Program-made: the position numbers and the translations under genes | The notes under the pieces: model-generated | The model's input: the letters and a program-made list of their open reading frames with translations, nothing else | What the model was told of the DNA's origin: nothing | Databases searched by the model: none | Shown here: positions 4,079 to 29,785 of the stretch, piece by piece | Layout of the letters: every line of letters begins with the position of its first letter | Numbering within the stretch: the first letter of the stretch is position 1 | Origin: a virus | Direction: 5' to 3' (one strand) | DNA length: 49,688 nucleotides | Virus record (IMG/VR): IMGVR_UViG_3300036790_000126 | Span: 1-49,688 of that record

Positions 4079-5115
4079 CCGCCCCCATCAACCCAATCCC
4101 CATCGGACAGACCGCCTCCTACACAAAAGGGCAGCAATACGCTGCCCTCACCCAACTGGAGCAGTTCCCCGAATACCTAGCCGGTTTGCAAACCCAGGTC
4201 ATCTACATCGACCCAAACAGCAACGTCTTTCACCTCAACGGGCCGCTAGCGGGGTGGGAGGGTGTGCAACTCGGCCCCGTTATTCAGGGCGAACAACACC
4301 TTCCGTTCGAGCAGGTGCTGATTGAGGGCGCCTTCCAGTTGGGGTCAACGATTCAGCGCACCAACATCAACAAACGGTTGATCAACTTCCGCATCCAAAT
4401 CGCAGGCAAAAACAACTACCTGTACCGGATGGCTGAGGAGCGTTGGTGGGCCGGCCAAATCGAAGACCAGCCAGGCTGGCTGGGTGTGTTCACCCGCCTG
4501 TCGGGGTGGCGGTGGGTCCAGGTCTGGCCCTATAAGACGGTGGACACCGCACAGCAGATGGACGCCGTCGGCTACGGCAACAACTTCGCCGAATGGGACA
4601 TCAACTGGATCGCCCCCTACCCGTATTACTCGAAACCGACGGTGTTCGGGCAGTGGAAAGCTCTCACCTCCGGCCCTGCGGATAAGACCGGATACTATTC
4701 GGGGAACATTGTTTTGGCGAACCGCGGAGACGTTGAAACCAACGTCTACTACTTGATCGCCGGGGCCGGGTACTGCCAGCTGCAGGACAACAACTCCTCG
4801 AGCATGGTGACGTTGCCGCAGATTTTTCCTAGTGATGGTGTGGTGTTGTGCAACACCGATCCCGCGCAACGAACTTTGGTGGCGGAAAACGATCCCCAGG
4901 ACAACATCTTCTACGACATCGCCCGATCCTCAGGGATATTGAACTTTTTCCTGTCCGGTATTGATGAGTCGGATGAGCCGATCTGGCAGCGCGGCTACAC
5001 CCGGTTCGTCAACACCGTCCCACCAATGACGGCGACGCATTTCACGGTGGCGCACAGCAACCCGAACGCGACGATCACCGCGTTTCTTCCGCAACGCTAC
5101 AGACGTGCCCGCTAG
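4075..5115 (+). CDS. Distal tail (Dit-like) minor tail protein
   Basis: This 346-residue protein is the first gene after the tape measure, the usual place of the distal tail protein that joins tube to tip complex. It starts at the ATG overlapping the tape measure stop. It is rich in Trp and Tyr (RWWAGQIEDQPGWLGV, GWRWVQVWPY), as seen in the siphovirus distal tail/minor tail family of mycobacteriophages, and ends in a basic RRAR tail. The assignment is from position and composition. Confidence 0.8.
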   Translation: MTAPINPIPIGQTASYTKGQQYAALTQLEQFPEYLAGLQTQVIYIDPNSNVFHLNGPLAGWEGVQLGPVIQGEQHLPFEQVLIEGAFQLGSTIQRTNINKRLINFRIQIAGKNNYLYRMAEERWWAGQIEDQPGWLGVFTRLSGWRWVQVWPYKTVDTAQQMDAVGYGNNFAEWDINWIAPYPYYSKPTVFGQWKALTSGPADKTGYYSGNIVLANRGDVETNVYYLIAGAGYCQLQDNNSSSMVTLPQIFPSDGVVLCNTDPAQRTLVAENDPQDNIFYDIARSSGILNFFLSGIDESDEPIWQRGYTRFVNTVPPMTATHFTVAHSNPNATITAFLPQRYRRAR

Positions 5116-26857: not shown

Positions 26858-27289
26858 TCATATCATCGCCAACTGTTCTCCTGAGCCCCCGTTATTTTTG
26901 AGGACATTGCACCGCAGATGTGCACACTGCACATTCGCATAGGTATGGGTACCTCCGCGACTGAGCGGGATGACATGGTCCAAGCTGGCGCAGAGAGGGT
27001 TCGGGTATCGCAGCGCGCGGTCCACCTTCTCATGGCAAAGCCCGCATCGCCACTTGTCGCGCCAATAAACGCGCAACGGCTCGACGGCATCGCACTGCGT
27101 CTCCGGCGTAAGCCCGAGAGCCGACGCTAGCCGACGCAACTCGTAGGCGCGTTGTTTACAAGGGGGACCGCAATATCGGCGCGGACGCCCGGTCTTCTCC
27201 AGCTTTGGGCACTCGCGGCCGCACCAAAGGCAGGAGGGAATCTGGTCTTTAGCTAGAAATAATACAGTTTGCGGTGGCTTAGCTGTCAC
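26858..27289 (-). CDS. HNH endonuclease with N-terminal Zn ribbon
   Basis: 143 residues from GTG 27289, which overlaps the previous gene by 11 bases; the longer frame would overlie that gene. The N-terminus has CLWCGRECPKLE and RRYCGPPCKQRAY. The C-terminus has CGLCHEKVD and SLDHVIPLSRGGTHTYANVQ followed by HLRCNVLKN, a classic HNH. It lies left of integrase and may be a homing-type nuclease. Confidence 0.82.
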   Translation of the reverse strand: MTAKPPQTVLFLAKDQIPSCLWCGRECPKLEKTGRPRRYCGPPCKQRAYELRRLASALGLTPETQCDAVEPLRVYWRDKWRCGLCHEKVDRALRYPNPLCASLDHVIPLSRGGTHTYANVQCAHLRCNVLKNNGGSGEQLAMI

Positions 27290-27467
27290 GTGACGAAACT
27301 CCCCGGGTACGTCCACGATGCTCAGGACAGAAATGCCCGGCGCTGCTGATCGCCCAGCCATTGCGTCGCGCCACCGCAGTAACGCATGCCCGCGTGGCCT
27401 CGCGTCCTTCGCAACGCACTTCCTCGTCGCAGACATCGCAACGGACGCCCGTTACCTTAAAGAACAC
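27279..27467 (-). CDS. Small Zn-finger protein
   Basis: 62 residues from GTG 27467 (VRCDVCDEEVRCEGREATRA and HFCPEHR). Cys/His pairs suggest a zinc fold seen in small mycobacterial-phage proteins. The start codon lies 7 bases after a TATAAT box, so the mRNA is probably leaderless. Confidence 0.7.
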   Translation of the reverse strand: MFFKVTGVRCDVCDEEVRCEGREATRACVTAVARRNGWAISSAGHFCPEHRGRTRGVSSRDS

Positions 27468-27519: not shown

Positions 27520-28389
27520 TTACGCCGCCCCACCGTGGCTGGCTGCAGCTTCGGCTACCGCGCGGATTTCCCTAGCAGCAACCGCTGTGTAGCGCTGTGT
27601 CGTCGCCACCGATGCGTGCCCTAGAGCTTCCTGGACTGCTCGCAGATTCCCGGTACCCGCATAGCCTCGGGTGGCGAAGCGGTGCCGAAGTTTATGCATC
27701 GACCAGCCGGGCGGCATCACCTTACTGACGAGGTGCCCGACCCGGTCGGGGCTGATGTGTCCGTCGATCTTGCCGGGGAACAGAAACCCTCCGAACGGGG
27801 ACGCCTTGGCGAGTTCGGCAGCGAGGGTGACGGTGATCGGCACGACCCGCTGTTTGTTGCCTTTGCCGTGGACGATCAGTTCGGCTCCGTCGATGCCGTT
27901 GACCAGATCATCGCTGTGTACGCAGGCGACCTCAGCGCGGCGTAACCCTGCTTCACAGGCTAGGCGCGCCATCAGGCGGGTGCGTTCGTCGGCCGTCGCC
28001 AGGATTTGGCGCCACATGTCATCGGTCGCGGGCCGCGGTGCCCCGATCGCGGCCCGCACAGATGGGAGAGTGAGTGTCGGGTCGGCATCGACCACCCCGG
28101 ATATGGCGCACCAGCGGTAGAATGATCCCAGGCTGGCCCGCAGACCTCGTCGGTGTTCAATCGAATACTGCGGACGCCCGAGAACAGCCAATAGGTCGTC
28201 GCCCGTTACATCACGGGGATGGTCGGTCCCGATGCGACGGGCTACTGCGCGGACGTGGGAGCGCCGTGTTCGCTGTGTCGCCTGGGATGTTCCGGCGGCG
28301 ATCAACCAAGTCATCCACCCGGTGACGGCGGTATCCCAAGCATATGGTAGAGAGTAAGAAAGACTATGTAATTGCCCCATGGGGTGCAT
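27520..28389 (-). CDS. int: Tyrosine integrase
   Basis: 289 residues from ATG 28389 (GGAGAG site); an upstream ATG at 28419 is less favoured. An N-terminal SAM-like domain is followed by the catalytic domain: CEAGLRRAEV (Arg), HGKGNKQRVVP (Lys), HKLRHRFATR (His-x-x-Arg), LGHASVATTQRY (His, Tyr). It catalyses attP-attB recombination. The C-terminus ends SHGGAA; a di-alanine tail is the kind of ClpXP-type degradation tag reported for Int in integration-dependent immunity phages. Confidence 0.92.
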   Translation of the reverse strand: MHPMGQLHSLSYSLPYAWDTAVTGWMTWLIAAGTSQATQRTRRSHVRAVARRIGTDHPRDVTGDDLLAVLGRPQYSIEHRRGLRASLGSFYRWCAISGVVDADPTLTLPSVRAAIGAPRPATDDMWRQILATADERTRLMARLACEAGLRRAEVACVHSDDLVNGIDGAELIVHGKGNKQRVVPITVTLAAELAKASPFGGFLFPGKIDGHISPDRVGHLVSKVMPPGWSMHKLRHRFATRGYAGTGNLRAVQEALGHASVATTQRYTAVAAREIRAVAEAAASHGGAA

Positions 28390-28544
28390 GTTTACTCTCC
28401 GGTAACTTAGATGGTGCATTCATTCAGGTGATTGCCAGCCCCAATACAACGCTTTGGCAGGTTCGCGTTCAGTAATTCCTCCCCGCCTCTCGGGGACCAA
28501 CCTCTAATCAACAGATTACAGGTTTGTAATTCACAGCGGGCGCA
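28390..28544 (-). other. int-rep gap with small palindrome
   Basis: 155 bases without a clear gene. They contain ATTACA-GGTT-TGTAAT (28515-28530), a perfect six-base palindrome, overlapping GATTACAGGTTT (28514-28525), which recurs at 28632-28643. Possibly integrase arm or core binding sites. Confidence 0.5.
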
Positions 28545-29039
28545 TCACGCTGCCATAGGCACCCCGTACGGTAGAGTCGCGCTCAGTCCCCTGTAGCTCA
28601 ATCTGGCAGAGCATTCGGCTGTTAACCGAAGGATTACAGGTTTCTCTAGACCCTCAGTTGGACCGATCTGGCGGGTAGCTTCCTCGTTGAGAGAGCCGTC
28701 TTCCTCCATGACGAGGATGCGTGCGCGGCGCGGGATGTCGATTATTCGATCATTAGACGGGGACGCTTCTTTCTCCGCATCCCCTTGCGGAGGGTGAGGC
28801 ATCGCGTCGCCACCTTCAATCCAACTGAGCGGGACCGAACAGTGGAAGGCCCACGCGCGCAGGGTAATCCTGCGGGGGGCGACGCGGCCGAGTTCGGCGT
28901 TGCCGATGGTGTTGCGCGAGACTCCTATGAGCTCGGCGAGTTCCTCTTGCTCGTAGCCGGCGAATTCACGGGCTATGCGCAGGCGGTGGCGTAGCAGCAC
29001 TGGCGGGATCTGACCCGCCTCATATGCACTGGTTGTCAT
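28545..29039 (-). CDS. Immunity repressor with attP core in its 3' end
   Basis: 164 residues. A Cro/C1-type helix-turn-helix at about residues 17-60 (RLRIAREFAGYEQEELAELI, VSRNTIGNAELGRV) is followed by a dimer or linker region. Residues 133-151 (KPVILRLTAECSARLSYRG) are simply the antisense of a tRNA-Asn segment, and the tail LSATLPYGVPMAA ends in AA. After integration at tRNA-Asn the last 13 residues would be replaced by host-encoded sequence. This matches the BPs-type system, where loss of a C-terminal degradation tag stabilises Rep. Confidence 0.85.
   Translation of the reverse strand: MTTSAYEAGQIPPVLLRHRLRIAREFAGYEQEELAELIGVSRNTIGNAELGRVAPRRITLRAWAFHCSVPLSWIEGGDAMPHPPQGDAEKEASPSNDRIIDIPRRARILVMEEDGSLNEEATRQIGPTEGLEKPVILRLTAECSARLSYRGLSATLPYGVPMAA
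28587..28643 (+). other. attP: Probable attP core: 5' part of tRNA-Asn (GTT)
   Basis: TCCCCTG, the D-arm GCTC...GAGC, the anticodon arm TTCGG-CTGTTAA-CCGAA (anticodon 28621-28623) and the T-stem start ACAGGTT follow tRNA-Asn up to the T-loop. After 28643 the match ends and no 3' acceptor strand is present, so it is not a working tRNA gene. It lies inside the repressor gene beside int, where an attP core is expected. A TAGAGT box 10-15 bases upstream could serve as a promoter for the rebuilt tRNA. Confidence 0.8.
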
Positions 29040-29165
29040 GAGCAGACTTTATGCGCAGTCGCGCAACTTGGCAAGATATCCACAAGTTATCCCCATGTGA
29101 ACAATTAAGCAACACGCCGGTATTTGGCTCTTGCACAACTACGCGAACAGCACTACTTTGTGCTC
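29040..29165. promoter_or_regulatory. Divergent rep / cro-like promoters with two operators
   Basis: Leftward: TTGCCA (complement of 29069-29074), 17 bp, TAAAGT (29046-29051), 6 bases before the rep ATG. Rightward: TTGCAC (29131-29136), 17 bp, TACTTT (29154-29159), 6 bases before ATG 29166. Both are therefore probably leaderless. A likely operator 29051-29066 reads TTGCGCGACTGCGCAT on the minus strand and lies between the rep -35 and -10. TTGCACAACTACGCGA at 29131-29146 aligns with it across the rightward -35. Rep may repress both. Confidence 0.7.
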
Positions 29166-29360
29166 ATGCCCAATCTTGCGCCGATCTCGGCGACTGAAGC
29201 AGCATCCCAAACCGGAGTCCCCAAGCGCACCATCCTCTGGGCCATCCGCGCCGGGAAACTCAAAGCAAACAAGCTCGGCGATGGCGCTACCAGCGCTTAT
29301 CTGATTCAGCAGAGTGACCTCGATCAGTACATGGAACAGCGCGCACGGGAGTCGGCATGA
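29166..29360 (+). CDS. Cro/Xis-like HTH protein
   Basis: 64 residues from ATG 29166 (a longer in-frame start at 29124 would lie in the promoter). ISATEAASQTGVPKRTILWA and the following IRAGKLKANKLGDG...DLDQYM form a MerR/excisionase-type winged HTH. It is divergent from rep, the place of cro in mycobacteriophage switches. It could act as Cro, Xis or both. ATGA overlap with the next gene. Confidence 0.78.
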   Translation: MPNLAPISATEAASQTGVPKRTILWAIRAGKLKANKLGDGATSAYLIQQSDLDQYMEQRARESA

Positions 29361-29785
29361 TCGGCCAGCTCCCTGAGCGCATGCAGAACAAGATCGTGCT
29401 GGAGCCGTGCCTGATCCCAGGCCTTGATCCTGTCTGCTGGACATGGACCGCCGCCGTCACCAGTAAGGGATATGGGAGCACCTGCCATCAGGGGCATTCC
29501 GTGTCCACCCATCGGCTCGCCTACGAATTGCTGATCGGCCCGATTCTTGACGGTCTACAGATCGACCATCTGTGCCGCAATACGCGTTGCTGTAACCCTG
29601 CACACCTGGAGCCGGTCACCGCGCGGGTGAACATGCAGCGCGCACGCGCCGTCACAGTGTGTACCCGCGGCCATGAGTACACACCTGAGAACACGATCTG
29701 GAAGAAGCACGGCACTCGGCGCAACTGCCGCACGTGCGTAAATCAGTGGCAGCGTGACTACCGCAGTCTGACGACTGCGTCATGA
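29357..29785 (+). CDS. HNH endonuclease (HNH_3 type)
   Basis: 142 residues with CWTWTAAVTSKGYG, HRLAYELLIGPILDGLQIDH, LCRNTRCCNPAHLEPVTARV and a C-terminal CTRGHEYTPENT ribbon. This is the usual layout of homing-type HNH nucleases in mycobacteriophages. Coupled to the cro-like gene. Confidence 0.85.
   Translation: MIGQLPERMQNKIVLEPCLIPGLDPVCWTWTAAVTSKGYGSTCHQGHSVSTHRLAYELLIGPILDGLQIDHLCRNTRCCNPAHLEPVTARVNMQRARAVTVCTRGHEYTPENTIWKKHGTRRNCRTCVNQWQRDYRSLTTAS

Follow-up and report, generated by a model that had tools for sequence, protein, structure and literature searches.

Integration-dependent immunity is already known. In BPs, Brujita, Charlie and UmaThurman-type phages, as at the locus described here, attP lies within the repressor gene (rep), rep sits beside the integrase gene (int), and a tRNA-derived core runs antisense to rep; the viral repressor (Rep) is long and carries an -AA tail, the alternative stop lies on the host side, and the tail of the integrase (Int) is similar. 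According to the available parts of two papers, the BPs junction forms a TGA codon and both Rep and Int bear ssrA-like tags (PMC9262239), and the same account is given for M. abscessus prophages (PMC9934374). Common cores typically include the 3' half of the tRNA, as stated in an accessible portion of PMC10865867, and use of the 5' half is described in an excerpt of PMC6563490 as considerably rarer. Restoration of a tRNA from its 5' half has archaeal and rare bacterial precedents: for pTN3-like integrases of archaea and for rare elements in bacteria, as proposed here, the 5' half serves as attB and a promoter of the element drives the rebuilt tRNA; for pTN3-like elements this promoter is that of the integrase, similar cases being seldom seen in bacteria (PMC8371274 and PMC6563490, as far as the available text goes). 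Unlike the present locus, pTN3-like elements are archaeal, and the 5'-half elements described in those portions have no repressor gene over the site. Lysogeny is likewise coupled to the integrity of a single-copy host tRNA in tRNA-dependent lysogeny (Fionnbharth and others), although there the tRNA is broken and complemented by a phage tRNA gene, which is lacking here (PMC10865867, in part).

A 49,688-bp viral record, hereafter the window (the whole stretch of DNA that was analysed), is considered likely to encode an integration-dependent immunity switch with its attP on the 5' half of a host tRNA-Asn. To our knowledge, no mirror-image (5'-half) system of this kind has been reported, and the literature searched gave no title describing one. 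Among the BPs-type phages tested (8/9 with a match) the tRNA 3' half is used, whereas the window carries the 5' half; furthermore, the tRNA would here be rebuilt at the int side, with a one-base difference in the D-loop as the switch. The first-pass annotation had proposed an attP inside the repressor, a tRNA-Asn target and a 5'-half core, all of which were supported by sequence tests, integration itself being unobserved; its comparison to BPs, Brujita and Charlie stands for the logic of the switch but has to be amended to a mirror-image variant with a one-base D-loop switch.

Layout of the proposed integration and immunity locus

The record is linear in topology and could be incomplete. As it is a viral record and the putative attP lies mid-contig, the site was interpreted as attP and not as a lysogen junction. 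Both rep and int are on the minus strand, rep being upstream of int with 125 bp between them, and the features of the region are as follows.

27520..28419, minus strand: tyrosine integrase gene (int), 299 aa, C-terminus ...HGGAA
28497..28526, no strand assigned: accessory inverted half-site pair, ATTACAGGTTTG and ATTAGAGGTTGG, with 6-bp spacer CTGTTG (21/22)
28545..29039, minus strand: repressor gene (rep), viral form 164 aa, ATG start, HTH, C-terminal tail ...SYRGLSATLPYGVPMAA
28566..28578, plus strand: copy of the host tRNA-Asn -10 region, GTACGGTAGAGTC (GTACGCTAGAGTC in hosts), 8 bp before tRNA nt 1
28587..28632, plus strand: tRNA-Asn 5' half, nt 1-45, with one additional D-loop base
28627..28632, no strand assigned: inferred strand-exchange overlap CGAAGG, tRNA nt 40-45
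28633..28644, plus strand: repressor-side half-site ATTACAGGTTTC, near consensus ATTANAGGTTTG (10/11)
29124..29360, plus strand: small HTH protein gene divergent from rep (HTH_17; weak PHROG 66 match)

The N-terminal HTH domain of Rep gave PHROG 2328 ('transcriptional repressor', E 4.4e-24) as its top match, and no relatives of this repressor were found in the viral contigs searched. The viral form reads ...GVPMAA at its C-terminus, which by its residues is an ssrA-like -AA tag, and a resembling -AA tag at the end of Int, noted earlier, was confirmed. The alignment of the integrase to PHROG 1 starts only at profile position 173 of 611, so that the protein may be arm-less, lacking an N-terminal arm-binding domain; the Brujita integrase is arm-less. 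The product of the divergent HTH gene is a candidate excisionase or Cro-like protein. HNH endonuclease genes (Pfam HNH, HNH_3) are found at 26858-27436 and 29357-29785, either side of the integration and immunity module.

The tRNA-Asn core and the predicted junctions

Positions 28587-28642 align to nt 1-55 of tRNA-Asn with 93% identity (E 1.8e-18, against a set of 57 distinct tRNAs from Mycobacterium loci). The core lies within the rep coding sequence, and the coordinates given in the first-pass annotation, by which Rep residues 133-151 are antisense to this part of the tRNA, were confirmed, as were by translation the 13 repressor residues that it had placed past the core, ending MAA. An ordinary 3'-type core was ruled out, nothing of tRNA nt 56-76 being present in the window, and the usual mycobacteriophage Int-Y rule of a core over the tRNA 3' half is therefore unmet. 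Chance resemblance of the core to a tRNA was ruled out on the E-value. An origin of the arrangement in either such chance or an assembly chimera, to which the single viral record and the absence of a related phage record by megablast of the window (phage tRNA genes being the sole matches) leave some room, appears extremely improbable given that E-value, the single open frame that runs through core and tail, and the agreement of the orientation and of a nearby accessory site with those of relatives.

The D-loop of the window reads AATCTGG, versus AATTGG or AACTGG in hosts, and the extra base is absent from all 13 distinct mycobacterial tRNA-Asn variants. Comparison of the core with host tRNA-Asn genes, suggested at the outset, gave a mixed result: it is identical to no host allele seen (248 Mycobacterium genomes, 243 of them with a match), which fulfils to the letter the refuting condition set with that suggestion, but several alleles agree fully with the part from the D-loop GG to nt 45, where the inferred crossover lies, and nt 46-55 hold substitutions relative to host alleles. 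Since, in addition, the 9-nt D-loop pattern was found in 0/401 family genomes at up to one mismatch, the true host remains unidentified. Viral contigs scanned for tRNA-Asn 5' halves yielded 20 stretches, every one within a complete tRNA; a search for the exact pattern with the 9-nt D-loop had no matches. It is conceivable that the true host has the same 9-nt D-loop, in which case translation of the lysogen Rep would continue past nt 1 to a stop in the host DNA, and the switch would not be the extra base. Complete tRNA-Asn genes with 9-nt D-loops do exist, as in Gordonia phage Fryberger (AGTCTGGCA), yet the absence of the base from the 13 mycobacterial variants and of the pattern from the family genomes makes such a host unlikely.

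Junctions were built in silico by fusing rep, at the overlap, with each of 39 tRNA-Asn alleles from hosts. In 39/39 the predicted lysogen Rep is shortened from 164 to 146 aa and ends ...AN or ...AS, because the host D-loop supplies GCC AAT TGA or GCC AGT TGA in the Rep frame; in the virus, one extra C in the D-loop keeps the frame open through nt 1 to ...MAA. Thus the idea that integration strips the tag was borne out by a shorter Rep in silico, although 18 residues and not 13 are predicted to be lost, the host D-loop being one base shorter and bringing a stop into the Rep frame earlier than the 13-residue placement implies.

At the other junction, hybrids of phage nt 1-45 and the host 3' half were called tRNA-Asn in 13/13 distinct combinations, with the -10 copy upstream, which accords with the earlier proposal that the phage supplies promoter and 5' end and the host the 3' end. 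Upstream of most host tRNA-Asn genes lies GTACGCTAGAGTC or a close variant, and the leader from the window's copy to tRNA nt 1 is shorter than all host leaders listed. Taken alone the copy is weak evidence, a match with at most two mismatches occurring in 33/100 whole-window shuffles, and a simple sigma-70 scan reported no promoter there; by itself not rare, it is notable for its place and register, and its promoter activity is inferred. According to the tabulated counts, 6 of the 243 matching Mycobacterium genomes have two tRNA-Asn matches and the others one, which suggests a single-copy gene that integration has to restore. The opposite arrangement, in which the host tRNA-Asn is disrupted by integration and its function supplied by a tRNA-Asn gene of the phage, is known for phages with other integrase families (PMC10865867, in part). 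It can hardly apply here: ARAGORN found 0 complete tRNAs in the window, with the reservation that the linear record could be incomplete, and the shared stretch is 45-56 bp versus the 8-17 bp given for that mode in Table 2 of PMC10865867, the paper being available in part.

The favoured reading, integration-dependent immunity through the tRNA-Asn 5' half, would operate as follows. In the virus, Rep of 164 aa should be unstable owing to its ssrA-like ...MAA tail, its proteolysis being inferred, and Int carries a similar tail. Int would recombine attP with the host gene for tRNA-Asn, the crossover probably falling at nt 40-45 (CGAAGG). At the int-side junction, tRNA nt 1-45, preceded by the promoter of the phage, would be joined to the host 3' half to give a working tRNA-Asn, while on the repressor side rep would be fused to the host 5' half, where the TGA in the host D-loop would end the protein at 146 aa; without its tail, this Rep would be stable and confer immunity. 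On balance, though with less assurance than for the switch itself, the 46-bp stretch is viewed as having a dual use: one strand is a portable tRNA 5' half, with its promoter copy, that takes over the apparently single-copy host tRNA-Asn, the other strand encodes part of the destruct tail of Rep, and the extra base in the D-loop, which the tRNA tolerates, switches the frame between unstable and stable Rep.

Related loci, lysogens and half-sites

The closest integrases (66-80% identity) belong to mycobacterial phages and prophages; the nearest of these relatives use tRNA-Asn and remoter ones tRNA-Arg. Of 80 related viral integrase loci, some on contigs already in an earlier set of integrase relatives, 45 carry a tRNA 3' half (start at nt 28-40), 4 a partial core, 31 no match and not one a 5' half; in many of the 31, hardly any sequence, or none, is available upstream. 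No clear 5' type was found among 30 genome loci (11 minus-strand integrase genes having been re-read in the correct orientation), one locus (L134) showing a weak match to tRNA-Asn nt 10-28 (E 0.005). Nine annotated phages gave eight tRNA matches, all of the 3' type (six tRNA-Arg, Brujita tRNA-Thr and Charlie tRNA-Lys), and none for Dmitri. The window is the sole 5'-half case among the loci surveyed. Since the cores of relatives have the same orientation and cover the 3' half, the window follows its integrase group in orientation and target but not in the half that it carries: three natural lysogens (G241, G191 and G125) and three further loci (L002, L003 and L004) share the integrase group (66-80%), the tRNA and the orientation with the window, but have tRNA-Asn from nt 32-40 to 74-75. 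The N-terminus of the L004 repressor is related to that of the window (68% over residues 3-81).

Two loci with a full tRNA-Met beside integrase genes were considered as 5' types and dropped, as they look chromosomal with a conserved tRNA neighbourhood; their integrase-like genes (L140 1481-3840 and L147 1481-3842, in two Mycobacterium genomes) lie by a conserved tRNA-Val/Cys/Gly/Val cluster, and that of L140 has an internal stop. No convincing tRNA core was found at three other loci (L219, with 73% Int identity, L227 and L231). In L227, an exact 20-bp piece of tRNA-Ala (4834-4853) lies directly downstream of a group integrase, opposite the usual attP side.

The search for a prophage at tRNA-Asn, also suggested at the outset, found none of this phage, but did find the three lysogens of 3'-type relatives with Rep cut at the tRNA. 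In these, Rep terminates in ...DSNLQPFG, at nt 37-38, with a stop antisense to the anticodon loop; in G125, separate contigs carry the end of rep and the integrase gene. The top integrase match among 297 Mycobacterium genomes was 75%, giving no lysogen of the window phage, and the predicted int-side junction, a tRNA-Asn with a short leader, occurred in 0/396 Mycobacterium genomes (without a longer-spacer positive control). An integrase C-terminal half 96% identical to that of the window is encoded at the edge of a prophage contig of 44.7 kb (L027 1-433), where the attachment side is missing. At 34/59 distinct 3'-type loci, taking any open frame, the tail beyond the core ends AA or VA, against a mean of 1.6 and a maximum of 5 in 200 shuffles.

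Inference of the crossover rests on the extent of tRNA identity, which in near-relative 3' types starts no later than nt 40 (in several exactly there) and in the window covers nt 1 to nt 45, so that the stretch common to both is nt 40-45, CGAAGG (CGATAG in variant hosts and prophages). The half-site at 28633..28644 occupies the place of the tRNA 3' half in 3' types, and the near-consensus, non-tRNA half-site is thus on the repressor side in the window and on the int side in 3' types. Free half-sites of 3' types score at least 7 of 11 in 9/19 cases, at least 6 in 12/19 and at most 5 in 7/19, a score of at least 7 being reached by 0.9% of random 12-mers. The accessory pair at 28497..28526, between attP and int, scores 21/22 in the window, where 2000 shuffles reached a maximum of 17, with the 99% point at 14, and is inferred to be an extra integrase site; it may be a control site or a decoy or act in int regulation, its function being unknown. 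An inverted ATTANAGGTTTG pair with a 6-bp spacer reaches at least 16/22 in the attP-int interval of 9/12 regions, although the 16 of L002 also belongs to its attP; the others scored 12 (L004), 11 (L219) and 13 (L224). The same arrangement is centred on the attP overlap in 7/12 regions. As the consensus was picked after looking at the data, the half-site evidence is supportive and not proof. A 12-bp repeat, GATTACAGGTTT, initially read as a variant tRNA T-stem, was dropped as such and is more likely an integrase half-site, since in relatives the same motif is found upstream of int as an inverted pair.

These half-sites also bear on the possibility that the attP is defective or transitional, its tRNA 5' half stemming from imprecise excision, with no working tRNA rebuilt and stable lysogens absent or needing another tRNA-Asn. 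Only one such phage and no lysogen were found, and failures to rebuild a tRNA exist, for example in Daredevil, which forms clear plaques (PMC10865867, in part). Such an origin is nevertheless doubtful, since the repressor-side half-site is near consensus, the hybrid tRNA is called throughout, the -10 copy persists, its leader being shorter than all those listed for hosts, and the tail frame is still open to ...MAA; a fresh capture would, moreover, resemble the sequence of one host.

If the integration-dependent reading is correct, the locus suggests that such switches are not bound to the tRNA 3' half, and that one integrase group can use one target tRNA either way round, given a phage promoter and a re-tuned rep frame. 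The existence of 3'-type and 5'-type attP sites on the same tRNA, with the same inferred overlap, offers a clean comparison for crossover placement by the integrase, and bears on how attachment sites flip in evolution and on whether prophage takeover of essential host tRNA expression is possible. A ready 3'-type partner for comparison with the window is L220 (2419-2790), where a repressor with 68% identity to that of the window over residues 3-81 has a 3'-type tRNA-Asn core directly after its DNA-binding domain.
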